From NCBI GenBank assembly GCA_023014365.1, contig JAEBUN010000043.1, positions 248,001-312,000 on the forward strand: a stretch of 64,000 nucleotides of DNA. The letters run 5' to 3'. Of this stretch, positions 20,503 through 62,400 are shown one piece after another (the stretch's first letter is position 1; each line of letters starts with the position of its first letter). The notes beneath the pieces are model-generated. The model was given only the letters and a program-made list of their open reading frames with translations. It made no database searches and was not told where the DNA came from. Made by a program: the position numbers and the translations under genes. This DNA comes from Lepiota brunneoincarnata (Eukaryota; Basidiomycota; Agaricomycetes; Agaricales; Agaricaceae).

Positions 20503-21133
20503 ACTTGAGACCGAAGACAATACAAGGGCCCCATGGAGGGTGCCATAAATATTCCCATGTATTCAAAATGTGCTGACAAATGTACAGGCCTCACAAATGT
20601 AGTCACAGAGAAAAATTATAAATCTAGATTTGTTGTTCCCATTTGGGTGGTTCATAGAGTTTATGTCTGCAAGCCACCTTTTTTCGAACAATTTGAATTG
20701 CCTCTGCAACCATCATTTATTCACCCATTGAGTTAGGACCTATGATTGGGTAAGTGGTACATGTCCATTCATTAATTTATTTTAACAATAGTAGCCAAAT
20801 ATATCTGCTCTACTGAATGGGCTGAGAGAATATGCAGGGTCACTATTGTTAAAATGAATGAATCAAATATGTGGGCCTCACTTATCCAACCCTAAGTTCT
20901 AATTCAATGGGTGAATAAATGATTGTCACTAGAGGTAATTCAATTTTTCTAAAAAAAGGTGGCCCATACTTATAGACACCATGAACAACCTAAACAGGAA
21001 CAATAAATCTAGTTTTATAGTTTTTCTCTGTGACTACATATATGAGACCCATACATTCATCAGTAGGAGTTTGAATATATGAGAATGTTTATGGCACCCT
21101 CCATGGGGCCCTTGTATTGTCATCAGTCTCAAG
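20503..21133. mobile_element. Foldback (long inverted repeat) element
   Basis: The first about 295 bases and the last about 290 are imperfect reverse complements. The outer ends read ACTTGAGAC..GACAATACAAGG and its mirror image. An unpaired centre of about 40 bases lies near 20800-20840. Units 1 and 2 lack the insert at the equivalent place (after GGATGGAT). No transposase is encoded. A clean target duplication could not be fixed; the flanks GATAT and GATAG are the best candidates. It is a MITE-like or foldback DNA element whose superfamily is unresolved. Confidence 0.75.
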
Positions 21134-21399
21134 TGATAGTGGTTGCAATGAATGAGCATTCACAGGATACAGAATAATGTGCTAGTACTTAATAGGATGA
21201 TCGATAGTGGGACCATGTGAGTTAGTGATGGCACCCATGAGCTTCAGTTGCTGGCATTGGGTTTGCACTGAGCAGGGTGATATGTTCTTGAAATTTGTCA
21301 TGCTCTCCTCATCTTACCCAGCCACATGCCTGATGAGTTTCCACACTCTCATGCCCACATTGATAAAGGAGCCTTTCACCTAACTCTTGTCCCCCACAG

Positions 21400-22707
21400 T
21401 GAAAAGGTAGAAACATTCATGGATTTTTAATATAGATAGAGGGCTTGTTTTCACTAAGCTTAGCCAAAATTCGATAAGCTTAAGCTAATACAAGTGATAT
21501 GAGATAGATAATGAACAGTTTCATCTTTTATGGTGTTTTGGGGGTGCATTCTGACTGCAAAATTCAAGAGAGTAGTGTTTTAGAGGTTAACTGAACAGCT
21601 TTTGAAGTTATCTTAGCCATATGGTGCAACAATAAAAGGACAATCCCTGTCAATTCAAAGTGTGGGGTCTCTGGTCTCTGGTCTCTGGTCTCTGAACTCT
21701 GTTCTCTGTCTCTGTCTCTGTCTCCAGCACTCTGGAACTCTAAACTTCTGGACTCTGTTCTCTATCTCTGTCTCTGGGTTTGTTGACAACTGAAGAAATC
21801 ACACTTAACGAATGCACACTAAATAGTCCTCTGACACCATTCTTGATCATGGTTTGCAGACTTGCATGTGGAAGTGGGGGTGAGACCTCTTGCTTCTCCA
21901 CAAACAAGCACGACTGTATTTATATTGTTTAGATACATATGAGAGATAGTAAATATGAAATAGAAAACAATAAGCTTTAATTGTTACAGGTACTGTAGAA
22001 CATTTTGGAAGGTTCAGCAGCATTTCTACCTTGCCCTGGGTTATGGGTTTTTCTCTGATTGATGAATGGTAATCCAGCCTAGATGTGTTCTGTGCTTGTC
22101 TGCATTATTCTGCATCCACATGAGTGCATTAAGCCTTCCAGATCAATTATGATTGGAATGTATAGTAGATGGATAATCCCTTGATCTATTGTAATTAATC
22201 TCAGTTAAGTAGTATGCCGAGATGCTGGGACCCTACAAAGCACCTGCTAATTAGGAGTCTTTGATATTTCTAGGGTTTTGGGCATTGGTTGTCACTTCCC
22301 TGAATGTTGGATGTTCCGTTCCATGGTCCGGTCATCATTATTGGGCTTGCTATAGATGTAATACACCTGCGACAGCCACTAGGTACATTCTTTATATTCA
22401 AATGCATTTGGGTTCATCAGAAAACTGCTTGTAAGGTCCCTTGATGCAACTGGAGTACACTCAATAGGCTATGTAAAGTCCTGAATCCCTCCACAGAGCG
22501 TTCTGATAGCTTGGTTCACTAAGCTTAATGATAATGAACTGGTTTGAACACTTCTGAGGCTTGAATATCCATATTTTGGTCAAACTGGCTACTATGGGAC
22601 ATAGTACCAATTCTCTATAGAGTTCTTTAATGATATAGCCAATTATTCTATGTAGAGAATTGTTCCAGAGTATGGAATTCATGTATAGGCATGAAATCAG
22701 CATATCA
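21400..22707 (-). mobile_element. Solo LTR of Gypsy-C, old and CpG-depleted
   Basis: About 1,308 bp align end to end with the 1,301-bp LTRs at 44775 and 58111. It starts TGAAAAGGTAGAAAC, ends GCATATCA, and includes the GGTCTCT microsatellite near 21670. Nearly every CpG of the young LTRs is TpG or CpA here. Flanks ACAG and ATGG both derive from the ACGG seen at the empty site in units 1 and 2, consistent with a target duplication of about 4-5 bp decayed by CpG transitions. Confidence 0.85.
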
Positions 22708-44774: not shown

Positions 44775-46075
44775 TGAAAAGGTAGAAACTTTCGTAGGTT
44801 TTAATATAGATAGGGGGCTCGTTTTCACTAAGCTTAGCCGCTATTCGATAAGCTTAAGCTAATACAAGTGGAATGAGATAGATAATGAACAGTTTCGTCT
44901 TTTAGGGTGTTCTGGGGGTGCGTTCTGACAGCGAAATTCAAGAGAGTAGTGTTTTTAGAGGTTAACGAACAGCCGTTGAAGTTATCTTAGCCGTACGGTG
45001 CAACAATGAAAGGACAATCCCTGTCAATTCAAAGCGCTGGGTCTCTGGTCTCTGGTCTCTGGTCTCTGAACTCTGGTCTCTGTCTCTGTCTCTGTCTCTA
45101 GCACTCTGGAACTCTAAACTCTGAACTCTGGTCTCTGTCTCTGTCCCTGGGTTGGTCGACGACCGAAGAAATCACACTTAACGACGCACACTAAATAGCC
45201 CTCTGAAACCGTTCTTGATCACGGCTCGCAGACTTGCGTGTGGAAGCGGGGGTGAGACCTCTTTCCTCTCCACGAACAAGTGCGACCGTATTTATATTGT
45301 TTAGATACATACAAGAGATAGTAAATATGAAATAGAAAACAATAAGCTTAATTGTTACAGGCACTGTAGAACATTTTGGAAGGTTCGGCAGCATTTCTAC
45401 CTCACCCTGGGTTATGGGTTTTTCTCTGATTAACGAATGGCAATCCAGCCAGACGTGCTCCGTGCTCGGCTGCATTATTCTGCGTCCACGCGAGCGTGTT
45501 AAGTTTCCGGATCAATTATGATCGGAATGTATAGCGGATGGACAATCCCTTGATCCGTTGTAATTAATCTCAGTTAAGCAGAATGCCGAAGTGCCGGGAC
45601 CCACAAAGCACTCATTAATTAGGAGTCTTTGATGTTTCTAGGGTTTTGGGCATCGGGTATTGCCTCCCGAACGTTGGACGTTCCGTTCCGTGGTCCGGTC
45701 ATCATTATTGAACTTGCTATAGACGTAATACGCCTGTGACAGCCGCTAGGTACATTCTTTTATGTTCAAACGCATTCGGGTTCATCAGAAAACTGCTTGT
45801 AAGGTCCCTGGATGCGACCGGGGTATACTCGATAGGCTATGTAGAGTCCTGAATCCCTCCGGAGAGCGTTCTGATAGCTTGGTTCACTAAGCTTAGTGAT
45901 AATGAGCTGGTTTGAACACTTCCGAGGCTCGAATATCCTCAGTTCGGTCGAACTGGCTACTACGGGATATAGTACCAATCCTCTATAGAGTTCTTTAATG
46001 ATATAGCCAATGATTCTATGTAGAGAATCGTTCCGGAGTACGGAATTCATGTATAGGCGTGAAATCGGCATATCA
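44775..46075 (-). repeat. Gypsy-C 3' LTR
   Basis: A 1,301-bp LTR with ends TGAAAAGG..ATATCA on the plus strand. It contains a GGTCTCT/CTGTCTCT microsatellite at about 45045-45150 and four TAAGCTTA palindromes (44829, 44849, 45343, 45888). Confidence 0.95.
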
Positions 46076-46094
46076 TCTCCCCCTAACCAAATTG
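46076..46094 (-). promoter_or_regulatory. Gypsy-C 3' polypurine tract
   Basis: On the minus strand a CAATTTGG segment and TTAGGGGGAGA lie immediately before the 3' LTR start TGATATGCC. This is the expected plus-strand primer. Confidence 0.7.
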
Positions 46095-46402
46095 CTGACT
46101 GTCCTCAGTCATTATCTCCTTCAAATTCACAGTATCTGAGTCTCTCTGACGCGCTCTATGGTCTAGAACGTTCACCAGCTTCGAGGGTAGCGCACTTTCG
46201 CTAAGCTTATTTCAGAATGATGTCATGTCACCGAGTTTAAATGTATAGATCAACTTCTTGTTGCTATAGCTTAAATTTTTATCTCTTTATTGGGTCTTTT
46301 AAATGTCCCAAGGTCTTGTTTCATCTCCTTCGTTCTCCCTCTCACTTCTTACTCGTCTATTGTGCTCGCATATTCACTTTTCAACGCTCACTTCTATCAA
46401 CA

Positions 46403-48433
46403 ATGGACAGAAACACGCGCAGCAGCAAACGTGCTCGCTACGAGGAGGACTCGGACTCTTCTTCCAGTAAGTAGAGTTCGAGTTACAGTTTTGTCTGTTT
46501 TCTTAACACTGTTTTCAGGCTACCCTGGGCCGAGCAACGCCTCAACGGCTTCCCAAGGCGCGCCTTCATCATCGATCGCGCAACGTAAGTCGCGTTTTCC
46601 CCTGTTCTCGTTGTCTTTACTTATGTTTTCTCTACTTTTAGGTCTCACTATTCGCCTCCCGGCACGTTGCAACCTCCTACCTCAATGGGAACCACCAGCA
46701 CCGCGTACTAGGAGGGCTAGAGGAGGGCGAGGAGCTCGAGGAGCTTGCGGAAATCGTCAGGTGGGTGTGGCAAGGACCCCTCCTCCACCATACTCTCCGC
46801 CCTGCGAACCAACTCCTCCGCCGGCCTCTCCTTTGTACGCTCCAGTGCCAAGACGCGTGATTTCCATCGCGTCGTTGTGCAATCCAACTGACGAGCGCTC
46901 TGCCGGATTTTCCGCAGAACCCTCGTCAGGTATCCCCGTTGGCGGGCCCTCTGGTGGATTATCCACAGAGGCTTCGTCCAGTTCAATGTCGCTGCCCCCT
47001 CTCGCCGTCTCTCTGCGCACCCTGGACGAGGAAGACTCGCTGGTGCTCCCTCCCTTGGGTATTGCATCAGGTTCGGAGGTGCCGGGCCCTTCAACAAACC
47101 AGCCTTCTTCCCCTGTACTCTCTTCTGCTACTTCAATGCGTAAGCTTAGTCGTTTTTCACGATATATTTGTTCTTTCCGCTGACTTCTGCTTTAGCGCGT
47201 ATACCAGCTGCCTTTAAAGGCAAACAGAGGGCGAAATCATCGACGCCGCCCCCTCTCCCCTTATTCCTGGCGGGTTCTAACTCGTCATCGCGTTCTCCAG
47301 TCCCTGAGATCTCTCAAGCCAACCTCTTCAAAATCTTTAGCTGGTCCTCTTCTCTGGATGGGCAACAGGTGCTGGCTTTGCCTAGGTGCCCAACACCATC
47401 ACCACCTCACTTAGCTGGCGCTCCAGTCGCGTCTCCCGCAAGCGCCGTGGAGATTTCTCCTTCTCCAGATTTGGAGCTCCTTCTGGAGCCTTCGCCTGCC
47501 CCTCAAGAACCGACTTTTGTTTTTCAAGACACGTTCTTAGCTTCTCTGACCCCCGTCCTTTCTCGTTTGCCTAGCCCGGTGGTTCCGGAGATCCCTCAAG
47601 AGTCCCCTCATGCTGGCCCGTCATGTCAACAACACGTCCTTTCGTCCAAGAAGAGTTCCAACACGCGGACGAAGAAATACGTTCCCCGGGCTCGCGTTCG
47701 GCGCTCTGAGGCCGAAATTATTCGGGACCATGGATACCGGCACCCAGTCCCGCTCTTTTGTGAGGACTTTCCTAGGCTGCTGGCAGCTAGCCAGCTTTCG
47801 GTACGTTCTCCAAGTTTTCTTGTGGTTCCTTACTGATGGCTTTGACATCTGCTCCAGTACGTGCCACCTCGGTCTCAGTGTCCTTCTTGCGCTGCTCGTA
47901 AGTTGGAGTGCGAGCCTCTGGGCAAGGGTAAGAAGTGTCGCAGCTGCAACTTGTACAACTACCCTTGTACCTTCGTGGACCATCCCCGGGTTTCGGCCGG
48001 CGTTGCGAACGCCCTGGTCACATCCTCACTGACCAGTGAATACCGTAAGTTTCTCTGTTCACTATTTTTCCCTTTTCTTATTCTCTTTATTTTTCTAGAT
48101 CTGGCCGCGTTCGCGCGTGTTGTGTCCTCTAGCTTGGTCAGCCTGGAGGCGAACCGCGTCGCTTACAAGGCTTCGGCGTTTCACCACCGCCATGTAGTTT
48201 ATCAATTCGTCCAGGAGATGCAAGCTACCAGGACTGCCTTGGACGGTAACGACGTGGCTTTTGTAGAGATGGGTATGGCCGACTCCCTTGAAGACGTTTG
48301 GGCGTTCTTTGAGTTCGCCAACAACTTTCCGGGGGTCCCAACATACGAGGAATTCGAGGAGCTCAAATCGCTTCTCTTCCTCGCTTTCCCGATGACTCAG
48401 GATCCGGAGTCTGTTCTAGAAGACCTTGAGTGA
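46403..48433 (+). CDS. P1: spliced gene with a Zn2Cys6 signature (584 aa)
   Basis: Six exons: 46403-46466, 46519-46584, 46642-47139, 47196-47800, 47858-48044, 48099-48433. All introns are GT..AG and 52-57 nt, and the joined length is 585 codons with no internal stop. The start MDRNTRSSKRARYEED is basic and nuclear-like. Residues about 20-410 are Pro/Ser-rich. Exon 5 carries CPSCAARKLEC and CRSCNLYNYPC, giving CX2CX6CX8CX2CX6C, the spacing of Gal4-type Zn2Cys6 DNA-binding domains. The C-terminal about 110 residues look helical. The last intron is also open in frame, so retention is possible. It is transcribed opposite to gag-pol. A DNA-binding role is inferred from the Cys spacing only; the domain sits internally, unlike typical Gal4-family factors. 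Confidence 0.75.
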
Positions 48434-48823
48434 TCTCTGCGCCTAGTTTACTTCTTGGATGTAGTATATAATCTTGTCATGTATATACATCCCAATAGTC
48501 ATCTTGTTGTTCCTTGTCTCCTACTGAGTTAAGCTAAACTGTTTTTGACTTTCTTGTCATCTCCTAAAGCTAAGCTAAAGACCTCCTGGGAGACTCCTAA
48601 GCTAGTTTAGGTTGCCAGTCACTTATATACTCATTATATGCCTCTCTGATCTATCAGTGATGTTTATTGACATCTCAGCGCGCCGTGACCCGCAACGCGT
48701 AGTGACCCGGCTCATCCGCTCCGGTTTACTTACAAGCCCGAACCAGCCTGTCCACGCTGTTCGAAAAAGCTCCTCGCGAAAAAGCTCGCGTCAAACTGTC
48801 AAACTGAAGCGCCCCTTGGGACC

Positions 48824-48844
48824 CATCTCCCCCTAGCCAAATTG
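48824..48844 (-). promoter_or_regulatory. Second, internal copy of the Gypsy-C polypurine tract
   Basis: Twenty of 21 bases match 46074-46094, including the purine run AGGGGGAGATG on the minus strand. It lies 2.75 kb inside the element, between P1 and P2. It may be a central polypurine tract as in Ty1 or lentiviruses, or a scar marking the ancestral 3' end before P1 was gained. Confidence 0.55.
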
Positions 48845-49066
48845 AAATCGGTGCCCTCACCGTTCCATCAGAATCCCTGTGCACACTGATAACCGCGAGA
48901 CCCTGGCGACATGTTACCTAATAAGGCAACTGTGGTTCAGCAAGTCTGTCGAAGGCTGGCTACTCAAGATTACAGGTTTCCTAGGCCCCTCAGGTCATAA
49001 GCTTAGGGTGGAGGGTGCTCTTCATCCACTCGTTATGATTCGTCATCACTGCCTACGGCCTTTTCT

Positions 49067-49072
49067 TATAAA
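49067..49072 (+). promoter_or_regulatory. TATA box of P2
   Basis: TATAAA lies 52 bases before the P2 start codon, in the context CTTATAAAAGCG. This suggests P2 has its own polymerase II promoter rather than relying on the LTR. Confidence 0.5.
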
Positions 49073-49118
49073 AGCGAGGGAGCGACGTCTCATTCTAGCA
49101 GACACCCTTCGCAAGAAA

Positions 49119-50465
49119 ATGGCTTCTTCTATCCCCCATCTCCAGGTTGAGCTCGACGATCTCATCAGCAACGCCAAAGGTTGTCTTCAGTGCCTGCAAA
49201 ACGGCCAAGTCGCTTGTCCCCTCGTCGAGAAGGCTCTCCTTGCGTTTGACGCCCCTGGGGTATGTCTACTCTTTCCATGCTTCTCTCGCCGTTTCCAAAT
49301 CATTTCTAGTCTGCTTATATTGAAGCGTTATCGGAGGATAATGAGGCTATCAAGCTTCATGTCAACCAGGACTACGTCTTCCGTATCCGCAAGCTCTACG
49401 AAATCTACCAAAACAACTACCATTCGTCTTATGAGATGCCCGTGATCTATAAGGCGCTCTCTGAATGCTGTAGCCGCATTAATCGCGTTCGTTCCGAAGA
49501 ATCCCACAAATCCAGGACCGAAGAGGCTCAGAACCCATCGTCCACAACTGGCTCTACTTCCTCCAACGTTGCTGAAGGCTCTGCTGTCCCCAAACACGTA
49601 AGCTTAGCGTTCTTTTGGCTCCAATCGTCTCCTCATGTATAAGCTTAGCCTCGCAAAGGTCGCAAGGCCCCTGTCTCTGCTGCTGTTGTGGTAGACACCG
49701 ATACCGAGCTTGCTGAGAGTATGCCCAGTGCTTCCAACTCCCGAGCAACTGGTGCTGACACGGTAATATAGCTGCTTCTCAACCTATTACATTGGCTGAG
49801 ATAATCGCTCGCCTCCAGGACATGATGGTCGATGAGGAGGTCTCTCAAGCTATCGTCGAAGAGGTTCGTGTAGTCTCGCCTTATTGCAAGCGTCGTTTGT
49901 CTACCTCCGACGTGGTGCACCAGCTCCACTCCCCCCAACCACTGATTCTGACTTCCTCCCTCTTTAGGAGACCGTCAAAAAGTCCTCATCGTCTAAAGGC
50001 ACCATCCGTCTTCTTTCCTATTGTCAAGTTCCCAATATGAACACTAAACACTGCTGTTATGTCCGGGCTGAACAGGTTCTAGCCAAAGCCAGCGCCAATA
50101 CTGCCAAGCGCGCCCGTACCGAGTCTGCTTCCGATGAGCGCACCTTTGCAGGCTTATCTGGTGGGCAATTTCTCACTTCTCTTTGCTAAGCTTAACGGTA
50201 CTGACACTTCTCCCGGGCAGCTCGTTTGCTCCAGGAACTCCAAAACCTCCTGTCTCACTCTCGCGACGAGTACGAATCCGAATCTCGCGGTGACGACGCT
50301 CGGTCAGTCAAATGCGACCTCAATTCGCTCAGCCGGGACTTCATCGATGCTATTCCCTTGCTCGAAGCCAACTTAAAAAGGTTCCAATTCCTCATTCAAG
50401 AGCGCATCCGTCTCAAAAGCCTTTTGCGCAACCTTTCCGACTTGGACAAGTCCTCCCCCGCTTAA
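49119..50465 (+). CDS. P2: spliced gene of unknown function (about 357 aa)
   Basis: Proposed exons: 49119-49259, 49310-49597, 49649-49762, 49819-49911, 49968-50160, 50221-50465, total 358 codons in frame. Introns are 50-60 nt. The fourth intron donor (GTGGTG at 49912) is the least certain. The protein starts MASSIPHLQVELDDLI and has a DYVFRIRKLYEIYQNNY segment, a basic PRKGRKAP stretch, a TAKRARTES segment and a helical, probably coiled-coil C-terminus (LLQELQNLL..FQFLIQERIRLKSLL). TAAGCTTA lies at the donor and acceptor of intron 2 and inside intron 5. I recognise no family. It runs tail to tail with pol, 76 bases apart. Confidence 0.55.
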
Positions 50466-50541
50466 GCTTAACGCTTTTACAGTCCCCAGGATAGTTTTCC
50501 TTCGATAAGTAGATAGTTCTGTCCACAATATCAGGTTTTTT

Positions 50542-53500
50542 CTATCCCTCCAACTCTTCTGGCTCCCATCTGTCACTAGGCTCATCCTCAGTAGTCTCCT
50601 CCAGGGTCTTCAGTCCCTCTGGCGACAGATCTAACAACTCTTGTAACTCCAGCGGCAACGGCATATGTTTTCTGGCTAAGTAGGGAATTACTCTGAATGC
50701 CGCCACTTTATTCTGCCATACAGAGCCATCCAACTCTGCCAGGATATATGATCCTCCCTTTGATCTAGATATGACCACCATGGGTCCTAGATACCTGGGT
50801 TTCATCTTCCTGTCTGCTGAGCTCTCTATAGCTGTGTTTCTCACTAATACTAAATCTCCCGGGCCGAAGCGATAATCTTTTATCTTATGCGCTGCTTGTC
50901 GTTCCATCTCCCAAGCCTTGCTAAGCTTAGTGTCTGAAACACGCTGACGCACCTCCTCAACATGCCGAACATGTTTTGCCAAAGCCTGAGCTTGGTATCC
51001 TATCAACTCGGCCGTGGTTAAGTACTTATTTGGTAGTTGTACTAGCCAAGTGGCCTCTTTGACATCCAGAGGTAGCGTCGGGTGCGCTCCGGTTACCAGA
51101 AAGTACGGGGAACACCCCATTCCTTTTCTAATGGTTATCCGATCTGCCCACATAACGTGCGGTAGGTGCCAATACCACTTTTTGACATCTCCATCTGTAG
51201 CTTTGTACAACATTTGCCGCACATCCCAGTGGGCTCTTTCAATAATCCCGTTCGCTTTGGAATTGTAAGGAGATATCGTTACTCCTTTTATCCCATATTT
51301 TTCTTCCAGCCATCGAACAGCTTTCTTAAATGGAGAACCGTTGTCCATGACAATCTTCACTATACAGCCCCATCTGCAAATGATATCTTCAAATAACCAC
51401 TGCGCAATCGAACTAGCATTCTCTTTTCTCAAAGCTTTTGCCTCCATCCAGGACGACAGTCCACACCTTCCATGCACAATATAACTACACCCATTAGAAC
51501 TTGGCGTCATATGTAGTGTGTCCACATGTAGCACTTGGAATATCGACGGCGTGGGCGTTACTATTGGCGGCGTCTCAATGATCGCCTTTTGTTGTTGCTG
51601 GCATAGATGGCATGATTGCACATACCAAGTTACGTCTCCTTCAACTTCCGGCCACCAGAACCTCTGCGTTATAAGCTTAGTGGTTGCGTATATTCCCCTG
51701 TGTCCTAGGAAGTCGTGGCTGGCTCGCAACATATACATACGTTGCTCCTTATCCACTACTAGCTGATGCTGACCGCTAGGGCTCATCCTATACAGTCTCC
51801 CCTCTTCGTCCAAGAAGAAATGCTCCACCATATGCTTAAGCTTACGCAGATCCGGCTCATCCAAGCCTTCAGCTGCGCTACTGCCCCCTGTTTTCAGGTA
51901 TTCCCTGACTTTGGGTATTCTTCCGTCTTGTATTCGCGCTGTATCTGTCCTATGCGATTCATCATACGCTTCCTCTATCTCGGTCAACTTTTCCTCTTCG
52001 AAATCTGGCACTAGCCTGACATCCGTCATTAAGCTTAGTACTTGTCGGTGGTTTTCTGGGCACGCTGGGTCTTCTATAACCCTAAGCTTAGCCTGTTGTT
52101 CATCCAAGTACTCTTCCCGAGCTTGATCCAGCTCATACTCAAAATCATACACATCACGCGCCAGACCCTGGTAGAAGCCAGAGCGACTGTCGATCTCATC
52201 ACAGAAGGCTTCCAAGGGTAACGGATCTGCAGCCCCCAGATCTCCTTTGATCAACTCGAACTCCTCTCCCTCGTCCTTGGATCCGTCGTCGAAACGACGG
52301 GCTGTCTCATCACCGGGATAGTAACGTCGTCTGGACAGTCCATCTGGCCCAAATGTCTTTCCTTCTTTGTGTACTAGCGTGAAGTGGAACGATCTAATGA
52401 AGTCTACCCAACGGTTTACAGTAGCGTTCGGGAGTTTTCCTGGGTTGTTTAACATCCCAAAGAGAAACTTCGCGTCTGTTTCCACTACTAGATTTCTCGA
52501 TCCCCACAACAAATATTTCTCCTGTTCCAGCACCATTCTTAAGCCGCATAGCTCTCGCTTGGGCTGAGAATACCTCTGCTGTCTCTCGTCCAACAATATT
52601 GACCCAAACTTCGCATAATGTATAAGCTTAGCGTCTTCTCCATCTCGCTGATATATGTAGTATCCCACCGCCCTCCATGAGGTATCCACGGCTACTACTA
52701 TGGGTTGTTTACTCGGGAATTTGGGGTTCCTGGTCAGGAAACAGCGTTGAATTGCATCTTTCAGCTCCTGCTGTGCTTTCCGTTCATTTTCTCCCCATTC
52801 AAACTCTTGCCCTTTCTTAAGCTTTTCGTATAGGGGTGCAGCAATGGCTATGAACTTCGGGATATGATTCCTGCAGCGCGTAGCTGTTCCTAGAAAACCC
52901 CTTAGCTCGGAGACATTCTCGCAATCCCCCCATCTTAATATCTTCCCAATGGTGTCTGTGGCAGGCAACTGTCCTTTATAAGAGCATTCAAAACCCACTA
53001 CGGTGATTTCATCAGCGCAGATAGTCGTCTTGGGCCCAGAGAAGGTTCCTCCTACGTATTTCATCCTCTGTAGAATCCTATTGACCGTCTGCATGTGTTC
53101 CCATACAAATTGTCGGATCCCTGGGTTTTCTTTCAGCGTCTCTTCCGTGCCATCTGGCAACTCATATCTAGTTTTGGGTCCTCTGATAGGTACATCATCT
53201 ATGTACGGCATCGTGTATTCTGGTATCTCACTGGTTAGGATCGCTGTTACATCCTCATGAAATATAGGCACTGAATTGGTCCATCCCATGGGTAACGTCA
53301 CTAAGCGTAGCGCTCCAAAAGGCGTCTGGAACGTTGTTAAGTCCCGAGATGACTCAGCTAACAGTCGTTCGTCATAGCCAACATATAGATCCAGAATGCC
53401 TCTGCAGGCTCTGCCTGCGAAGTGCATTGCCAAATCTTCCGTTGCTGGCGGCAGTCCTGAATGCGCTATCGTCACTTTGTTCAGCGGTTCCAAGCTGTGT

Positions 53501-54391
53501 ACCAGTCTCAAACTTTTCCCATCTTTCTTCACCACACAGAACCATCTGGATCTATAGGATGAGTTCGACGGCTCGTATACACCAGCACTAATCTTTCTCT
53601 TTATAATGGCACAAACTTCATCATAGATCGCTGGTGGAATCGGAATGGGTTTCTCAACCCACGGAGTATGTTCTACCGTCGGTATCTTGATCGGCGGGAA
53701 GAAATCTTCCCTAAAACATCCCTTTTCCTCATCTGTCCAGGCGAATGCCTTTTCTTGAAGCATCATGATGTGGTGCATCAGCTTTCTTTCCTCTGGCCAC
53801 AAGAAATCCCCTGCATGGGCTTCGTCCAGCTTAAGCTTACGCTCCTCCGTATATCTGCCTGTCGGGACAAACTCTGGAGGATGCACGCTAAGCTCAGGCA
53901 TTTCTGCCAGTGGGTCCCCTTTTATTTCTCGTTTTATCCTGAATCTCTCCGGTAGATCACCCAACACTGGCCTCACTTTTAAGGCTACTGGTTTATATTT
54001 CTTCCCAGCCAGGCATTGTACCGTATCTTTGTCATCTTCTTCTGTTTCGAAGACAGTTATTCCCTGGTCCTCTGTGCCCTGCGCGTTGGCTATGCATCCT
54101 AGGCACAATAACGCCGTTGCTTTATCTTCCTGTGGGCAGTCCTCATCGCGTATGACTCGGTCAATGAACATTAGCTGTAGCTCGGCCTCTGAGAAGCTTC
54201 CTTTTGCTAAGCTTAGTGTTTGTGCGACGACAGGGCCCTTCTCATCATCATAGTCTATTATATAAGCCACCTCTCCTTGTCCCTCAGTCAACTCATCGAG
54301 GTTTCTTGAAAATTTTGACTGTTTTCCCTAAGCTTAGGAGGATTACACTCTCCTCGAGCATAAGTTGGTAACACAGCCCTTTCTCTGGTAT
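50542..54391 (-). pseudogene. Gypsy-C pol: RT, RNase H, integrase
   Basis: From about 54,310 down the frame is open to 50542 (about 1,250 codons). RT has [16 protein letters not shown] and YIDDVPIRG. RNase H has [15 protein letters not shown] and [13 protein letters not shown]. Integrase has an HHCC finger ([16 protein letters not shown]) and Asp-Asp-Glu in [15 protein letters not shown] and GIIERAHWD. There is no chromodomain; the protein ends in an acidic EPEELEG. Just upstream (54,310-54,391) the reading continues in another frame, so there is a frameshift near 54,310-54,330, and then sLTR-B interrupts it. Confidence 0.9.
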
Positions 54392-55052
54392 TGTTAGAGC
54401 CGGTGCGGGTCGGAACCGAAGCGGAGGGTCGGAGTGGTATCCTTGGTATAAGGTAACCGGGGGACGGGACGACATCAGTACGTAGACGGCGGGACCGAGG
54501 CGGAGTACTTCGGGCGGAGAGTGGACTTGCGGCCTCAGCTTATGTGCTGTGCCCTCCTACTGTCCGAGTCCGTATTTCAGGAAGTCGGGGCCGAAGCGGA
54601 GCGAGGCAGAGAGAGAGGAGGATAGGGAACAGGGGACTGGTCCGCTGCTCGATTCGATTATCAGACTGAGGAGTACAAGCCAAGTGCCTACGGTATATAT
54701 ACTACTAGCTCGACGAATGATGACTCGTACTGACTACGTGCGGAGCGAAGCGGAGACCCATATGGTTACAAGCGGATTACAAATAATTTCGAATGGAATG
54801 GAGACCGGTACGGGTATGGAGACTGGTAACGTATTCTGATTACGGACGGAGAATGGAGAACTGGACAATGGGAGCACCGAGGGTCGGGTGGTCGTGGCAC
54901 GTGTAGAGGTAGGTCGCGTGATCAGGGCGAAGGGTTGCGGTCGGAGCCAGTCGGGGCCGAGTCGGAGGGCATAGGGTTGTCGTGTGGAGCACACGTGGAG
55001 TCAAGAAGCCGAAGCCTAATGGTTAAGCTCTAGGTTTGGTGTGGATATGACA
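54392..55052. mobile_element. sLTR-B copy 2, inside Gypsy-C pol
   Basis: A 661-bp insert TGTTAGAGCC..GATATGACA with GGTAT on both sides (54387-54391 and 55053-55057). Removing it rejoins the protease-RT linker (SGEQTLVITDPNT to RERAVLPTYARG) in one frame. CpG is intact, so it is young. Its small ORFs are not genes. Confidence 0.95.
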
Positions 55053-56087
55053 GGTATTTGGGTCCGTAATAACCAAGGTTTGCTCGCCACTGGCGCTATT
55101 CCTGACTTCGCTAGCCGTCATTACATCAAAGGGTCATCCCAGGAGTACTCGATATGCGGGGCTACGAACGATGTGAACTTGCAAATAGATTGTGACTCCC
55201 CCGCAGGTAAAGCCTACGTTCTTTGCCAATCCACAAGTCTTTTCAACCTGCCCATTCGCACTCTGCAAATTTATCGTAGTATCTGGGTCCCAAGAAACTT
55301 GACATGCAATCGCCGCTTCCTGACTCATGGAGACGATCTGTGACCCGCTATCTAGCAAGGCCTCTTCCTGCCGAATCCCATTTATCAGAGTTGGCACTAC
55401 TCTCAACGACTCGCATTCTTTCGCAATAAACACTTGCCGTCCCCTGTCTCTTCGGGGCAGTGACTCCAAGTACTGCATGATTGGATCCTGAGCTACCCAG
55501 GCTTGGGTTGCCGAGCCTTCTCGGAGCACCGTATCATACTTCCAAGAGCCATCTGCCAACTCCGTTATCATGACTTGTACTGGCCCACTATTAATCTCTA
55601 TATCTTCTGTATCATCGTCCCCGGGCCCTACTCCTGCTATTAAGCTTTGACTCGTGGGTACCCGTTTTCTCATAATGCGCTCTCTATAAGCATTCCTGTA
55701 TATCGGTGACAAGGCCAAGAGTTCTCCATGCGATACTGAGGCTTCTCGCTTCAATACCCTGCTGAGTACTTCCTCAACATCGACATTCCTCTCTATAGGG
55801 GCCTGGTGCTTATACACAGGCTCCTTCTTGGATGGTTCCATCCTTCTGACAGGTAGTGGTGGTACCTCAACGACCGGGCGCAGTGGTTTCACATTTCTAT
55901 ATGGTAATTCTCCTGCTGTGGCACGCATTGGTTTCTCCGTTGTCTGCCCTATTTCCTCATTTTCTGATTCTTCTGATCGCTCGGAATCCGACGCGTCCTC
56001 AGGAGTCTGTCCTCTGGCGAAGGCGACCTTCTTCTTCAGAGCCGGCTCCTTCCTTGAACCCTTTAGAAACCCAACTCCGAGTTCCAA
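55053..56087 (-). pseudogene. Gypsy-C protease and linker
   Basis: The frame overlaps the gag end and includes an acidic/basic linker, then EALLDSGSQIVSMSQEAA, a retropepsin-type active site, and AYRVLLG. A TGA at 55134-55136 (minus) stands where LLG-R-PFD is expected. Beyond it FDVMTASEVRNSASGEQ continues in frame to the sLTR-B insertion. CGA to TGA is the likely change. Confidence 0.85.
56063..56072 (-). promoter_or_regulatory. Gypsy-C -1 frameshift heptamer
   Basis: Minus-strand GGGTTTC (56072-56066) is directly followed by the gag stop TAA (56065-56063). The protease frame is -1 relative to gag and overlaps it here. The heptamer fits the X XXY YYZ rule. No clear downstream stem was found by eye. 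Confidence 0.6.
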
Positions 56088-57979
56088 GTCTTCGCGCCAC
56101 TCCTGGTGTCCAAATACTGGCTTGCCGAGGGCGTACCATCTGTCAAACCACTAAGCTTAGCCTGTATCTGGGCCAATTGCTCGGCCAAAGACTGTATCTC
56201 GACATTATCATCCTTTCTGGTCATAAGCTTAACCTTTGGGGCACTCCCGGTGTGGATGGCAACTGTCTCTAACATTTCCATGCGCTGCTTCAGATGGCGG
56301 ACTTCTTCTTCCGCTGGTGACCTTTGGTTTTCTGACCTCGGGAACGCTCTCTGTGCAAACACCGCTGACGTTGGCACTTGCGGTAACTCAGGCTCAACCT
56401 CCGGCAGTTCTGGTATCTGAACAAAGAGTTGTCCCTTTGTCGCATAGTACTTTGCCACTTTCTCTTTAATAGGCCCTTCTCCTCGAGGGATACTCGAGCC
56501 ATCTCCCATATATATTTTGTTCCCTTCGACTCTAATTCGGCCAGCTTGTTTATCCGCCTCCATGTCCGGGCAGAATAACCAACTATGCCCTAATAACCAG
56601 CAGTAGAAACACTTGCGATTGGAAAGCGACCCTGCCGACCCACTTCCGGTATTCCTCTGAGCGTGATTATAACCGGCATGATTATGTCCTTCTTTCGCCA
56701 AACTCTCTAAGTATGATTTTAAGGTATGCCCCTGGATATTCATGAGGTCCTTAAGCTCAGCGAGACCGCCTGCCATCTGCGAGACTTCATCCTGAAACTT
56801 CTGTTTTAAGCTTTGCAGCTCTTGCTTTACTACAGGGTCATAAGTCCCTGTTCTGGACGTCGCAGGTGGATGGCTCATTGATGCCGAGTTCACCGGCCTT
56901 GAATCCTGATGAAGGGATCGCATAAGTGTTTTGCCAATCGAAATTTCGACGGCTTTATCCATGACGATCCTCCAATCATAGGGGTCCTCTTCGCGTAAAT
57001 CCTTCGCAGTTAGTGCCGACCCATCGCTCGCGGTTCTACGTGCCCCGGTGATCGCTAATCTCGCATTGAGTACGTCCTGGAACACGGAGTCCAGTGCGCT
57101 CGTAAATAACTCGACTAGCTCTCGGTTCGAGACTACCGCCGGCGACTTCAGGCACTTCTCTGCTTCTAGGATGAATCGCCTTTTGAAGTCTAAGACTCTA
57201 TGCTCCTCATTCATTGCAATGCCTCTACTCTCTGTGCAGAGTTCCCTCAATCGTCGCACTGAGCCCTGCTCGGCTGCCACAGTCTCGGGATACTCTTTCT
57301 TCAATCTCTCTACGAAGCCTGTCCAGCTTCCTGCTGGGAACTCCGCAAAACTCATCCACTCTTCATGGATATCCTGGTCCACATATGACACTGCCCAATT
57401 TATCCTTTCTGCATCGTCCGTCGTCTTCGTTATCGTGAAGAGCCGTTCAAGCGTCCAGAGATAATTTCTCAATGTCTGTGGTTTTGATGCATCCCATCTG
57501 GGAGCATTATTGCTAAAGGGAATTGGCATACGCTCGTGTCCCATTTTTCTAGCTGTAGTCGTCGTAGACGGCGTAGTTTGGTTTGTCTGTACAGTCGGAG
57601 TTGACTGTGATATCTGTGGTACCGTAGAGGCACCAGGAGGGTTCGTATGAAACGAGTTTTGGTTTGTAACCGCTAAGCTTAGCGTAGGAACGGTCTGGCC
57701 ATCCTGGCTTTCGGTGCGCAGAATATGCGCTATGTTGCGAGCTGAGGCTGGAAGCCTTAGTGTAATTCTGGGAGCAGTAGAGGTCGGCGGTGCGACTTCT
57801 CTCGATACTGCAACTGCTGAACCACTCGCTGTGTTCGCAGCTAGAGAGTTAACAGGATCTTTTCGCTTTCGAGAGGTACTAGCGGCAATGAGGCCTTCAG
57901 AACCTTCTGGACGATTGGAATTCCGAGTAGTTCTCTGTTTTGGGGGGTCGACCTTCCTGAGACTGTTCTCGAAGGACAT
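56063..57979 (-). CDS. Gypsy-C gag (about 638 aa)
   Basis: The open frame extends to 58177, inside the LTR. The first in-frame ATG downstream of the primer site is at 57979 (MSFENSLRKVDPP). It contains a Gag capsid-like region (WDASKPQTLRNYLWTLERLF; EEWMSFAEFPAGSWTGFVER), a possible coiled coil and one CCHC knuckle CFYCWLLGHSWLFC. It ends ELGF and TAA straight after the slippery GGGTTTC. Confidence 0.8.
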   Translation of the reverse strand: MSFENSLRKVDPPKQRTTRNSNRPEGSEGLIAASTSRKRKDPVNSLAANTASGSAVAVSREVAPPTSTAPRITLRLPASARNIAHILRTESQDGQTVPTLSLAVTNQNSFHTNPPGASTVPQISQSTPTVQTNQTTPSTTTTARKMGHERMPIPFSNNAPRWDASKPQTLRNYLWTLERLFTITKTTDDAERINWAVSYVDQDIHEEWMSFAEFPAGSWTGFVERLKKEYPETVAAEQGSVRRLRELCTESRGIAMNEEHRVLDFKRRFILEAEKCLKSPAVVSNRELVELFTSALDSVFQDVLNARLAITGARRTASDGSALTAKDLREEDPYDWRIVMDKAVEISIGKTLMRSLHQDSRPVNSASMSHPPATSRTGTYDPVVKQELQSLKQKFQDEVSQMAGGLAELKDLMNIQGHTLKSYLESLAKEGHNHAGYNHAQRNTGSGSAGSLSNRKCFYCWLLGHSWLFCPDMEADKQAGRIRVEGNKIYMGDGSSIPRGEGPIKEKVAKYYATKGQLFVQIPELPEVEPELPQVPTSAVFAQRAFPRSENQRSPAEEEVRHLKQRMEMLETVAIHTGSAPKVKLMTRKDDNVEIQSLAEQLAQIQAKLSGLTDGTPSASQYLDTRSGAKTWNSELGF

Positions 57980-58091
57980 TTTGGGTGACTTTACGGTCTT
58001 TGCTTGAACCTTTTTCTGCTTCGCAGGTGAAAGGCGGGCCAGTGTCCAAGTCTTTTTGGTGTTTGGCTCATGAAATTCAACTGAAAACCCC

Positions 58092-58108
58092 CCTTGCGGT
58101 GGGCTCCA
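58092..58108 (-). promoter_or_regulatory. Gypsy-C primer binding site
   Basis: Two bases after the 5' LTR end the minus strand reads TGGAGCCCACCGCAAGG. It begins with TGG, complementary to a tRNA CCA end, the normal place for a tRNA primer. I could not assign the tRNA. This contrasts with the self-priming arrangement of Gypsy-A. Confidence 0.65.
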
Positions 58109-58110
58109 GA

Positions 58111-59411
58111 TGAAAAGGTAGAAACTTTCGTAGGTTTTAATATAGATAGGGGGCTTGTTTTCACTAAGCTTAGCCACTATTCGATAAGCTTAAGCTAATA
58201 CAAGTGGAATGAGATAGATAATGAACAGTTTCGTCTTTTAGGGTGTTCTGGGGGTGCGTTCTGACAGCGAAATTCAAGAGAGTAGTGTTTTTAGAGGTTA
58301 ACGAACAGCCGTTGAAGTTATCTTAGCCGTACGGTGCAACAATGAAAGGACAATCCCTGTCAATTCAAAGCGCTGGGTCTCTGGTCTCTGGTCTCTGGTC
58401 TCTGAACTCTGGTCTCTGTCTCTGTCTCTGTCTCTAGCACTCTGGAACTCTAAACTCTGAACTCTGGTCTCTGTCTCTGTCCCTGGGTTGGTCGACGACC
58501 GAAGAAATCACACTTAACGACGCACACTAAATAGCCCTCTGAAACCGTTCTTGATCACGGCTCGCAGACTTGCGTGTGGAAGCGGGGGTGAGACCTCTCT
58601 CCTCTCCACGAACAAGTGCGACCGTATTTATATTGTTTAGATACATACGAGAGATAGTAAATATGAAATAGAAAACAATAAGCTTAATTGTTACAGGCAC
58701 TGTAGAACATTTTGGAAGGTTCGGCAGCATTTCTACCTCACCCTGGGTTATGGGTTTTTCTCTGATTAACGAATGGCAATCCAGCCAGACGTGCTCCATG
58801 CTCGGCTGCATTATTCTGTGTCCACGCGAGCGCGTTAAGTTTCCGGATCAATTATGATCGGAATGTATAGCGGATGGACAATCCCTTGATCCGTTGTAAT
58901 TAATCTCAGTTAAGCAGAATGCCGAAGTGCCGGGACCCACAAAGCACTCGTTAATTAGGAGTCTTTGATGTTTCTAGGGTTTTGGGCATCGGGTATTGCC
59001 TCCCGAACGTTGGACGTTCCGTTCCGTGGTCCGGTCATCATTATTGAACTCGCTATAGACGTAATACGCCTGTGACAGCCGCTAGGTACATTCTTTTATG
59101 TTCAAACGCATCCGGGTTCATCAGAAAACTGCTCGTAAGGTCCCTGGATGCGACCGGGGTATACTCGATAGGCTTTGTAGAGTCCTGAATCCCTCCGGAG
59201 AGCGTTCTGATAGCTTGGTTCACTAAGCTTAGTGATAATGAGCTGGTTTGAACACTTCCGAGGCTCGAATATCCTCAGTTCGGTCGAACTGGCTACTACA
59301 GGATATAGTACCAATCCTCTATAGAGTTCTTTAATGATATAGCCAATGATTCTATGTAGAGAATCGTTCCGGAGTACGGAATTCATGTATAGGCGTGAAA
59401 TCGGCATATCA
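58111..59411 (-). repeat. Gypsy-C 5' LTR
   Basis: A 1,301-bp LTR about 99% identical by eye to 44775-46075, mostly differing at CpG. It holds four TAAGCTTA copies. Its outer edge joins Tnp2 coding sequence directly. Confidence 0.95.
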
Positions 59412-62400
59412 ACGCACCGGTCAGACAGGTTTGTGGATAGAATCAGGTGCGTGATGGAGCAGCGATGGGGAAATGGCCACCTGCGAGATGATGGTTCTGG
59501 GCCTGCCTATAGGAATGATACCGACAGTGAAGACGAGGGATTTGGTGGTGCTGCCGGAGCTGAGCCTGAAGCTTCCCAGCCTGAGGCCTGCGAGAGCGAT
59601 GAAGCCTGTGAGAGCGATGAAGCCTGCAAGAGTGATGAAACCTGTGAGAACGATGAAGACAGCAAGGTTGATGAAGATGATGGTTTGTTCGTGGGGTCTG
59701 AGGTAGCTGGCATTTCCTCTTGGGACATGCTTGGTGAAAAATTCAAGCATGAAGTGGCGTCTGCATCCACAGGTTTGTCCTTGCTTCATGAATCACCTGC
59801 CTCGCTAACAATACTTCAGATGCAAATGCTTTGGGGGATTCAGACCTTAATCTGCTTTGTAGCTATACGCTCAAGGTGGAGGACCACATAACTGAGCACA
59901 CCTTTAGTCAACTCCATAAAGCTTTTCCAGGCAGCAATCAGGTCAGCCTGAAAATGACCAAGAAGCGCATTCGATCCCTGTCTGGATTTCAGCCCATATG
60001 ATACAGCTGTTGTATAAACAGCTGTGTTTGCTTTGTCGGGCCATATGAAGACCTCACTGAATGCCCCAACTGCAAGGAATTGCGATACACAACTAATGGA
60101 AAGCCACGCAAGACATTCGGGTACCTTCCCCTCATTCCTCACCTACGAGCTATGTCAGCAAACCCCACACACGCGAAAAAGATGCGTTATCAGGGTGAAC
60201 ACATTCACAAGTCCGGCATCATTAAGGACATATTTGATGGTTCCCATTATCAGTCCTTGCTCAATACTCTCATCCCTGACACAAGTCATCCCATGTTCTT
60301 TTTCTCCAATGAGCGCGACATCGCCCTCGGTCTTTCAACGGACGGCTTCGCTCCATTCAAACAGCATGATAAGACATGCTGGCCCATCCTCCTCATCAAT
60401 TACAATCTACCCCCCAAAATACGTTTTCAGAAACATTACCACATTCACGTTGGTACAGTCCCAGGTCCAAAAAAGCCTTGGGATTGGGATTTGTTCTGCT
60501 GGCCACTTGCTCAAGAACTCATTCAGCTCGAAATAGGCGTCAAACCTTTCGACGCCATCAGTCAATCATTATTCTCGCTTCATGCCTATCTCATCATAGC
60601 ATTTGGTGACATTCCGGCCATGGCTCTGATCACACGCATGAAAGGGCAGAATGGTATTAGTCCGTGCCGTATCTGCAACATCAAAGGGATACGCTCACAC
60701 TCTCACACTTACTATGTCCCTCTTCGACAAGATAAGCTTCCCAAAGCAAATCCCCTTCAATACAACCCGTCCGACCTCCCCATTCGCACTCACAAGGGGT
60801 TTTTAGAGCAAGCCCACACTGTGGAAATGGCCCCCAGTAACACCGTACATGAGGAACTCGCCAAACGATATGGCATCAAAGGGATACCAATCCTCAGTAC
60901 CATATCCTTGCTCTCATTCCCATCTTCATTCCAATTCGACTTCATGCACCTCATTTGGGAAAATTTGATCCCTAACCTCATTCTGTTCTGGACTTGTGAG
61001 TTCAAGGACCTAGATCACCAGGGCAAAGGCTATGCTATTGCAACGCAAATCTGGAATGAAATCGGCGCAGCTATGGCAGCATGTGGCGCAACAATTCCGG
61101 CAGCTTTTGGAGCTTCAGTACCCAACATTGCAACTAAACAGTCACAAATGACTGCCGAGATGTATGCCATTTGGACACTTTATATTGCTCCAGTTGTGCT
61201 TCATGGCAGGTTCACAAACATGAAGTACTATGACCACTTCATGCAGCTTGTCAAACTTTTGAAGCTCTGCTTGTTGTTTGAGCTCATGGAAGAGAACTTG
61301 AAACAGATTGATGAGGGTTTCAAGTCTTGGGTTCAGATGTATGAAAAGTGAGTATCTGCCTTCTACATTGTGCTCTTATACTTAAATCAATGTAGGCTAT
61401 ACTATCAAAATGACCCTGTTCGACTCTCCGCTTGTCCTCTGACCCTCCATGCCATTCTTCATATTGCATGGGGTATCCAGGTGGTGGGTCCTGTCTGGAT
61501 GTATTGGGCATTTCCTATGGAGCATCATTGTAACACTCTGCTTCCATTGATCAGAAGTAGACGCTACCCTTACGAATCCATCAACACCTTTGTTGTGGCG
61601 ACTGCACAACTAGATCAAATACGATTATTATATGATCTTTACAAAGTGCTATCTTTGGATCCTGACAAGAAGAAAGCGGACCAAATTGTTCATGATTTAT
61701 GTATGTTCAACCTGTCATCTTGTCGTTGTTGCTGTTAGAGCCGGTGCGGGTCGGGACCGAAGCGGAGGGTCGGGGTGGTACCCTTGGTATAAGGCAACCG
61801 GGGGACAGGGCGAAGTCAGTACGTAGACTTCGGGACCGAGGCGGAGTACGTCGGGCAGGGGTTTGGACTTGCGGCCTCAGCTTATGTGCTGTGCCCTCCT
61901 ACTGTCCTAGTCCGTATTTCAGGAAGTCGGAGCCAAAGCGGAGCGAGGCAGAAGAGAGGAGAGGATAGGGAACAGGGAGCTGGTCCGCTGCTCGATTTGA
62001 TTATCAGACTGAGGAGTACAAGCCAAGTACCTACGGTATATATACTACTGGCCTTACGAACTATGACTCGTACTGACTATGTGCGGAGCGAAGCGGAGAC
62101 CGATCTAGTTACAAACGGATTACGAACGGATTACGAATGGAATGGAAACGGGTACAGGTATGGAGACTAATAACGTATCTTGACTATGGACAGGAAATGG
62201 AGACAGGGGTATGAGACACCGAGGGTCAGGCGACCACAGCACGTGTGGAGGTGGTCGCATGATCGGGGCAGGGGGTTGCGGTCGGAGCAGGTCGGGGCCG
62301 AGTCGGAGGGCAGAGGGTTGTTGTGTGGAACACACGTGGAGTCGAGAAGCTGAAGTTTAAATGATTAGACTCTGAGTTGGCATGGATATGACAGTTGCTT

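Follow-up and report, generated by a model that had tools for sequence, protein, structure and literature searches.

Why should a fungal LTR retrotransposon repeat one eight-base word, TAAGCTTA, along its whole length, and what reads this word? The question is raised by Gypsy-C, an element lying in the 64,000-nt stretch of DNA analysed here (the window), which encodes two genes, P1 and P2, on the strand opposite pol. Antisense genes are relatively frequent in plant LTR retrotransposons, with roles still to be determined (PMC7264820), and an antisense gene that stands beside a selected, family-wide cis word has a function that can be tested directly.

Gypsy-C has the structure of a Ty3/gypsy element, a class whose paired TG...CA LTRs enclose gag and protease, followed by reverse transcriptase-RNase H and then integrase (Table 1). 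Profiles for protease, RNase H and the integrase zinc-binding domain were matched in the element; pol of this copy itself matched no reverse transcriptase profile, the gag-like ORF matched no Pfam family, and no exact target-site duplication was found at the element ends. The insert in pol is absent at the same junction in nine of ten copies, and the tenth has no coverage there. In the old solo LTR a fourth site is broken by one inserted base.

Table 1. Features of the Gypsy-C locus and exact matches to TAAGCTTA, in window coordinates
Feature	Position	Strand	Basis or context
Old solo LTR, same family (89%), 3 sites (21455, 21475, 22520)	21399..22707	.	
Gypsy element	44775..59411	gag-pol on (-)	paired LTRs
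Left LTR (3' LTR relative to gag-pol), TG...CA, 4 sites	44775..46075	-	self-BLAST, 99.0% to right LTR; ends
P1 gene, 584 aa, predicted, candidate reader	46403..48433	+	splice model, dN/dS
P1 exons 1-3	46403-46466, 46519-46584, 46642-47139	+	splice model
P1 exons 4-6	47196-47800, 47858-48044 (zinc-cluster exon), 48099-48433	+	splice model
P2 gene, ~341 aa, six exons by model	49119..50465	+	12 alternative models
pol ORF (RNase H, integrase zinc-binding domain), 8 sites	50542..54291	-	ORF and profile matches
Probable solo LTR of another family inside pol of this copy, no site	54392..55053	.	self-BLAST, 86% to 61733-62394
Protease part of gag-pol	55134..56087	-	gag-asp_proteas
Gag-like ORF, start extends into LTR; sites 56152, 56224, 57674, 58165 (LTR)	56063..58177	-	
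Right LTR (5' LTR relative to gag-pol), 4 sites	58111..59411	-	self-BLAST; ends
TAAGCTTA	44829..44836	.	left LTR
TAAGCTTA	44849..44856	.	left LTR
TAAGCTTA	45343..45350	.	left LTR
TAAGCTTA	45888..45895	.	left LTR
TAAGCTTA	46202..46209	.	upstream of P1
TAAGCTTA	47141..47148	.	5' splice site, P1 intron 3 (gene model)
TAAGCTTA	48998..49005	.	upstream of P2
TAAGCTTA	49599..49606	.	5' splice site, P2 intron 2 (gene model)
TAAGCTTA	49640..49647	.	3' splice site, P2 intron 2 (gene model)
TAAGCTTA	50187..50194	.	inside last P2 intron (gene model)
TAAGCTTA	50463..50470	.	over P2 stop codon (gene model)
TAAGCTTA	50922..50929	.	pol, T-K-L-S
TAAGCTTA	51672..51679	.	pol, T-K-L-I
TAAGCTTA	51837..51844	.	pol, R-K-L-K
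TAAGCTTA	52030..52037	.	pol, L-S-L
TAAGCTTA	52083..52090	.	pol, A-K-L-R
TAAGCTTA	52623..52630	.	pol, A-K-L-I
TAAGCTTA	53832..53839	.	pol, R-K-L-K; missing in copy D1 (D1 site at 53889 instead)
TAAGCTTA	54208..54215	.	pol, L-S-L
TAAGCTTA	54329..54336	.	upstream of pol ORF as read in this copy
TAAGCTTA	56152..56159	.	gag
TAAGCTTA	56224..56231	.	gag
TAAGCTTA	57674..57681	.	gag
TAAGCTTA	58165..58172	.	right LTR
TAAGCTTA	58185..58192	.	right LTR
TAAGCTTA	58679..58686	.	right LTR
TAAGCTTA	59224..59231	.	right LTR

An exact-match count found 31 copies of TAAGCTTA in the window, 27 of them between 44829 and 59231 within the element, three in the solo LTR and one stray, unrelated copy at 578, in agreement with the tally of the first-pass annotation. 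The shuffled control which that annotation had proposed gave a mean of 0.67 and a maximum of 3 when the whole window was dinucleotide-shuffled 100 times. With one LTR and the 54392-55053 insert set aside, the element holds 23 copies against 0.198 expected under an order-2 Markov model, which makes TAAGCTTA by far its most over-represented 8-mer, and no 8-mer other than its overlapping shifts comes close. Words with one mismatch number only 10 in the element, and elsewhere in the window they occur at 4.0 per 12.6 kb, so it is the exact word that is enriched. Genome-wide there are 5370 copies, compared with 842 of the same word reversed, a control that contains CpG and is therefore possibly low; the window shuffles would imply about 580. 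In DNA taken around element copies, which is not a random sample, element-like sequence carries 407 copies in 210,348 bp (one per 517 bp) and the remainder 2 in 119,563 bp (one per 59,782 bp). Spacing is dispersed (gap CV 0.88), and the site map and gene models confirm that copies lie in LTRs, at intron edges, in spacers and in gag-pol codons. The 11 sites tagged gag or pol use two reading frames; in the third, TAAGCTTA would create an in-frame TAA stop.

Six divergent copies, whose pieces are mostly 82-95% identical, keep 107 of 111 sites intact where context-matched mutation predicts 59.7, and site positions, whose comparison between copies had been suggested as a check, are accordingly kept far beyond drift. 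Inside the word we counted 5 mismatches in 888 bases against 66.1 expected (P 2e-22, independence assumed), while columns outside it mismatch at 2-20% each, so that the footprint is exactly eight bases. Control words of the same make-up were kept in 794 of 1235 cases in the divergent copies. Three copies picked blind to the motif kept 38 of 38 sites (20.8 expected), LTRs of less than 93% identity kept 19 of 20 as against 106 of 190 control words, and in copy D2 exact sites are kept across an overall divergence of 13% (about 30% over P1). Where subfamilies differ in their sites, at 53832/53889 and at 48571, each difference is a single base from TAAGCTTA. Conservation in ten young copies (245 of 246 site-copies intact, context-matched P 0.002) is weaker evidence than that from the divergent copies, and it is inflated because the word lacks CpG, whose bases in young copies change at roughly five to six times the rate of others. 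In pol, the protein leaves room for the word at nine places and eight of them have it, whereas synonymous shuffling gives a mean of 0.061, which upholds the earlier view that no protein or splicing constraint explains the copies. We conclude that the copies of TAAGCTTA form a cis array that is under selection and specific to the family. They resemble binding sites by which a DNA-reading protein, perhaps encoded by the element itself, would recognise the element.

The one sister family compared, E, has open gag-pol frames, and its pol pieces are 70-77% identical in DNA to those of Gypsy-C. It has no array, with one TAAGCTTA outside a nested C LTR, and no Zn2Cys6 pattern or P1 was detected in its two copies. 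CpG mutation, used as a proxy for methylation, was 6.7% within 30 bp of sites and 5.8-7.7% elsewhere; with no less decay close to sites, there is no sign of lasting local hypomethylation, though a transient loss could be missed by this proxy.

P1 is the best candidate for the reader. Its predicted multi-exon product has the six-cysteine spacing C-X2-C-X6-C-X8-C-X2-C-X6-C of Zn2Cys6 proteins, the class named for it in the first-pass annotation, and scores against Pfam Zn_clus (PF00172) at 10.7 bits as a whole and 16.4 bits for exon 5 alone, below the curated cut-off of 21, for which reason we call it Zn2Cys6-like. The gene model is one of 16 stop-free splice models and among those richest in introns. 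Between the window copy and D1 the dN/dS is 0.13 in the zinc-cluster exon, which is 92% identical in D1, and 0.08 in the last exon, and both exons look to be under purifying selection. Of 154 candidate places 40 were scored, and the P1 region was present at these with 91-100% identity. Protein searches returned no homologue of P1, so no family history backs its pairing with the word, and neither P1 nor P2 contains the VANC-type Pfam domains DUF1985 or DUF287. Zn2Cys6 proteins mostly read CGG-type triplets, and TAAGCTTA contains none; the lysine before L-E-C in P1 occupies the position at which Gal4 contacts CGG. P2 has no Pfam match over the cut-off, and because it adjoins P1 in the element the two are not separable by co-occurrence.

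TAAGCTTA is a perfect 8-bp palindrome made of two abutting half-sites, TAAG and CTTA, and would suit a symmetric dimer that reads duplex DNA; with less certainty, that dimer may be the element's own P1. It would then coat all members of the family, solo LTRs included, and influence their chromatin or transcription, either as a VANC-like anti-silencing factor or as a self-activator. The density of sites over the whole body, codons included, suggests a function that needs occupancy along the element and not at a promoter alone. We give about even chances to this joint reading, in which a selected address is sown through the whole element and P1 is its likeliest reader.

It is possible, though doubtful, that the reader is instead a host DNA-binding protein, the element borrowing transcription, nuclear-organisation or replication factors while P1 does something else. 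A zinc cluster such as that of P1 is untypical for this word, and the LTR sites and those upstream of the genes (46202, 48998) suit promoter use, but 15 of the 27 sites fall in gag, pol and P2, away from expected promoters, and the near-chance rarity of the word outside the family makes wide host use seem unlikely. Another protein of the element, either P2 or integrase or Gag acting on cDNA so as to mark, pack, protect or import it or to stop self-insertion, is an unlikely reader. The sites do span the whole cDNA, LTRs included, and the stretch F69 keeps 11 of 11 sites and the P2 portion, with no P1 match in the 5.5 kb covered upstream; F69 and copy F8, which retains only the last part of P1, are single copies and probably truncated. 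However, P2 has no recognisable DNA-binding domain, and self-insertion seems to occur, since copy D2 contains a C-family LTR and in F40 a C element adjoins C pol, so target immunity would be partial at best.

We find it improbable that the array is a titration sponge or copy-number sensor, with about 27 sites per new copy soaking up an activator or repressor. The number of sites per copy is high and stable, with thousands genome-wide, and old copies and solo LTRs retain them, but it is not obvious that selection, which works on the lineage of the element itself, would favour a sponge limiting activity. A signal at the RNA level, in which the self-complementary word UAAGCUUA of the genomic RNA would serve dimerisation or packaging, is very improbable: although a palindrome can pair between molecules and the full-length transcript should, from the layout, contain most sites, 27 copies over LTRs, antisense-gene introns and codons exceed packaging needs, and constraint ends at exactly eight bases, beside which no stem is conserved. 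Chance, composition, a mutation-poor word or the copying of a longer unit can hardly be credited. The lack of CpG noted above and the somewhat lower non-CpG divergence of old copies near sites (5-7% within 120 bp, 8-9% beyond 250 bp) would favour low mutation, but context-matched control words free of CG, TG and CA change freely in the divergent copies and the columns directly flanking the word vary. This whole explanation is already contradicted by the conservation test in those copies. As for a longer unit, pol aligns gap-free to its relatives at most sites, and flanks are unrelated between most sites, so none was copied.

The reading in which P1 binds the word has its closest parallel in VANDAL21, a Mutator-like DNA transposon of Arabidopsis whose sequence-specific anti-silencing protein VANC21 acts through the word YAGTATTAY, highly enriched in a single element family and scarce in other sequence, with binding and hypomethylation shown experimentally (PMC5735166). 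Gypsy-C likewise has a short word dense along one element family and rare elsewhere, and an extra gene beyond those for transposition. The VANDAL-like pairing of trans-factor and cis-address proposed in the first-pass annotation is borne out as to a conserved, family-specific word, and sister family E has no array and no Zn2Cys6 pattern was detected in it; the analogy fits less well in other respects. As described in PMC5735166, VANDAL21 words are mainly noncoding, in the same orientation, spread as tandem repeats and hypomethylating, whereas those of Gypsy-C are palindromic, dispersed, present also in gag-pol codons, differ by single bases and show no CpG relief, and P1 scores under the Zn_clus cut-off. 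Gypsy-C is, moreover, a fungal LTR retrotransposon, and its words are candidate binding sites. With slightly less than even confidence, we propose that an address in LTRs, introns and gag-pol codons is read by the element's own antisense zinc-cluster protein, which targets kin and spares the host. Sequence-specific self-recognition would then have arisen in retrotransposons separately from that of VANDAL DNA transposons, a VANC-like invention for which pol coding sequence has been bent to serve the word. Even if a host protein is the reader, the array is a rare and clean example of a retroelement with dispersed sites under selection.

Retand-type elements carry antisense genes in the same place as Gypsy-C, the Retand product being a TRP28 protein predicted to bind DNA where P1 has a zinc cluster, and about half of Retand elements carry tandem-repeat arrays; the passages of PMC7264820 and PMC11963269 concerned mention no family-wide dispersed cis word. 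The Boty-like elements of Botrytis (as cited in PMC7264820) are, like Gypsy-C, fungal LTR retrotransposons that carry an additional antisense gene, in their case brtn. Repeated sites for one protein also occur in other mobile elements, such as the clustered sites in Drosophila gypsy for Su(Hw), a host protein, and the subterminal TnpA sites of plant En/Spm. Those sites occupy one noncoding stretch or lie near the ends, whereas the candidate sites of Gypsy-C are dispersed.

The 8-bp palindrome TAAGCTTA (hereafter the word; its exact copies are called sites and named by their start coordinate) occurs 31 times in the window, and the tally of the first-pass annotation, 27 copies in the Gypsy-C element, three in the old solo LTR of the same family and one elsewhere, was borne out; shuffles of the window gave a mean of 0.67 and a maximum of 3. 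With one LTR set aside, the word is the top 8-mer of the element (23 copies vs 0.198 expected), and its one-mismatch forms show a mild excess (10 vs about 4). No comparable word turned up in the interior of the window's other Gypsy element (28.2-35.7 kb). Genome-wide, over 55.6 Mb in 95 contigs, there are 5370 forward matches of the word vs 842 of the reversed word, and in the DNA fetched the word falls once every 517 bp within element-like DNA and once every 59.8 kb outside it. The array across Gypsy-C is confirmed.

Features of the Gypsy-C copy in the window and of its neighbourhood
Feature	Position	Strand	Description
Gypsy element	44775-59411	gag, protease, pol on minus	two LTRs, 1301 bp each, TG...CA
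P1	between pol and left LTR	plus	584 aa, six exons; intron-bearing, predicted
P2	between pol and left LTR	plus	about 341 aa, six exons; intron-bearing, predicted
662-bp stretch inside pol	54392-55053		matches LTR-like repeat of another family
Transposase_21 (tnp2) ORF	60080-61351	plus	adjoins Gypsy element

Sixteen genomic copies were examined, and candidates for the P1 region numbered 154 at first count. In ten young copies (mostly 96-99% identical), whose choice took no account of the motif, 245 of 246 site-copies are intact; in raw terms 1 of 1968 motif bases changed vs 1.85% elsewhere. This raw figure was dropped as decisive proof, the context-matched expectation being just 8.3 motif mismatches where one was seen (P 0.002). 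CpG bases in these copies change at 5-8%, about five to six times the rate of other bases, and the contexts of the word at well under 1%. Because CpG is fast-changing and the word has no CpG, conservation in young copies is modest evidence on its own, and divergent copies were therefore analysed. The 2355 differences among young copies include 2148 transitions and 891 changes at CpG (the latter a sum); this transition excess and CpG rate, found in stretches L001-L020, are what cytosine methylation of CpG, or a RIP-like process there, would produce in the genome of this fungus.

Three of the six divergent copies (D1, D2 and D3) were picked from the genome-wide motif list and so are biased towards motif-bearing copies; the others (F69, F40 and F8) were picked, blind to the motif, by similarity to the P1/P2 stretch, with a query that did contain one site. 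Alignment pieces are mostly 82-95% identical to the window copy, and just 67-73% for D2 over P1. They cover 22 of the 27 sites in D1, 26 in D2, 25 in D3, 11 in F69, 12 in F40 and 15 in F8; alignments under 80-200 bp, pieces overlapping better ones, the insert inside pol and uncovered sites were left out. The expectation that site positions are kept between copies beyond drift was upheld, with 107 of 111 alignable sites intact vs 59.7 expected from trinucleotide-matched rates, and 5 of 888 site bases different vs 66.1 expected. Control 8-mers, matched for GC and free of CG, TG and CA, were intact in 794 of 1235 cases, and in the three copies picked blind all 38 sites are intact. A symmetric count over D1-D3, in which sites missing from the window copy are charged as well, yields 69 of 76 vs 0.65 for control words. 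Mismatch per column is 0-1.8% across the eight site bases and 1.9-19.8% at each of 28 flanking columns. Sites have somewhat less non-CpG divergence around them than is found at a distance, so the regional background differs in part; the sharp eight-column profile is independent of that background. LTR copies (30 alignments, all of at least 900 bp) have 102 of 103 sites intact, a figure to which the query LTR and the LTRs of copies that enter other counts also contribute. Among LTRs below 93% identity, 19 of 20 sites are intact vs 106 of 190 control words; the one lost site is broken by a single inserted base, in the solo LTR of the window. P values that assume independence are too small, since the copies share ancestry. 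Selection on the word is established about as well as sequence evidence by itself permits.

Site sets nevertheless differ between copies. D1 has TAAGCTTG in place of site 53832 and carries the word 57 bp off at 53889, where the window copy reads TAAGCTCA; D2 carries both, and because 53889 is a site in both D1 and D2, the difference could equally be a loss in the window lineage or a gain. A site is present in F40 at 48571, where the window copy reads TAAGCTAA, and D1 also has one in flanking letters closely similar to those of 48571. Each of these differences, at 53832, 53889 and 48571, is one base in a stretch that otherwise aligns, so it is point mutation that alters the site sets, not the copying of a unit. 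Three sites (50187, 52083 and 54208) are also missing from D2.

Pol's eight sites use two reading frames and encode K-L or L-S-L. At nine places in the protein the choice of synonymous codons would allow the word, and eight of these carry it; 2000 synonymous shuffles of pol gave a mean of 0.061 and a maximum of 2; the gag ORF has four sites (one of them in the LTR) vs a shuffle mean of 0.057 and maximum of 3. Proteins of Agaricus bisporus var. burnettii match this pol at 75-76% identity, so a mushroom is the most probable host; a search of IMG/VR with pol returned no relatives. At 54208, 53832, 52083 and 52030 alike, the required K-L or L-S-L is absent from all eleven closest full-length relatives (73-77% identity; three are from A. 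bisporus), which therefore cannot carry the same pol array; K-L is present at 51672 in seven and at 50922 in four, and isolated sites in these relatives are possible. Residues of pol at sites agree with relatives less than average codons do (0.32 vs 0.57; residue-matched control 0.54, P 0.0075). Since agreement is lowered too (0.385) at codons 3-8 away, the sites lie in variable stretches of pol. That the protein sequence may give way to the word at conserved residues is only partly shown, by single cases; the clear ones, among 60 relatives, are L153 (E or D in 55), L754 (Q in 47) and S27 (P in 47).

A perfect palindrome with zero base tolerance would suit the site of a DNA-bound dimer, and the favourite candidate for its reader is P1, the antisense Zn2Cys6-like protein that the first-pass annotation had put forward as trans-factor. 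Its six cysteines have Zn2Cys6 spacing, in an exon 92% identical in D1, and its profile score lies below Pfam's cut-off; typical Zn2Cys6 members read CGG words. By simple counting against D1, dN/dS is 0.13 for the zinc-cluster exon and 0.08 for the last one, vs 0.34 for the rest of P1, and the low values argue that P1 was functional during the active life of the lineage. Two protein searches, able to detect just proteins close to P1 in length and with short words in common, found no homologues of P1, no PDB sequence resembling its zinc exon was found, and the predicted structure of exon 6 (pLDDT 48.5) was set aside. The P1 stretch of D1 (L021/L022) is 82% identical to the window, other pieces 94-95%; this region seems to have been swapped between subfamilies or to have changed rapidly in them, with the zinc-cluster and last exons kept. 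The neighbouring antisense gene P2 adjoins P1 in the element, and these data cannot separate the two as reader: in F69, P2 and its sites are present and the fetched stretch has no match to P1, and in F8 all that is left of P1 is its end, as expected of broken copies and of no help in the choice. The sister LTR family E, whose gag, protease and pol frames are open and whose pol pieces are 70-77% identical in DNA, shows no protein with the Zn2Cys6 cysteine pattern in the stretches scanned and just one site of its own, a single comparison consistent with P1 and the word going together. The best word of family E, TAGTTAAC (8 copies vs 0.38), was rejected as a rival address, with no genome-wide enrichment (973 on both strands vs 2087 for the reversed control); judging by the 79/1360-bp spacing that recurs among them, three of the eight copies seem to be part of another repeat.

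A reader that opened chromatin lastingly should lower CpG mutation near sites, and no such drop was seen: the rate in young copies is 6.7% within 30 bp of sites vs 5.8-7.7% farther off, and in divergent copies it is equally flat (23-28%), so lasting local hypomethylation is not supported. Transient action of the reader in the active state is possible. The word gives no full target immunity, because apparent self-insertions exist. As for the proposed analogy with the VANDAL transposons of Arabidopsis and their VANC proteins, the logic is the same (PMC5735166, PMC10398659), but Gypsy-C departs from that system, as described there, in element class, protein, palindrome, dispersed sites and use of codons. 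Antisense genes in the same position are known in plants and Botrytis, with no function described for them (PMC7264820, PMC11963269). Among the literature matches listed (from a search that covered few subscription papers and no preprints) there was no dispersed self-address in an LTR retrotransposon; the word as a motif matched no paper, among the matches listed for it as a transcription factor binding site there was no transposon paper by title, and those listed for retrotransposons and palindromic motifs did not contain the phrase 'palindromic motif'.

The LTR pair of the window copy is 99.0% identical by self-comparison. No exact target-site duplication was found at its ends, despite the LTR termini, and the copy may be of recombinant origin. 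The adjoining Transposase_21 ORF is probably part of a CACTA-type DNA transposon. Just ahead of the old solo LTR lies a long inverted repeat (20503-21134; arms of 65 nt, 92%, and 133 nt, 77%), which could fold into a long hairpin. Two plus-strand ORFs at 4809-7454 (881 aa) and 13741-16635 (964 aa) are built of 45-residue repeats (LTPDDHPDKP...DLEEAIKNQQQAVL), in 12-13 units of 135 bp, and have similar C-terminal parts; presumably they are tandem paralogues with TPR-like repeats. Related repeats are present at about 23.7-25.4 kb.
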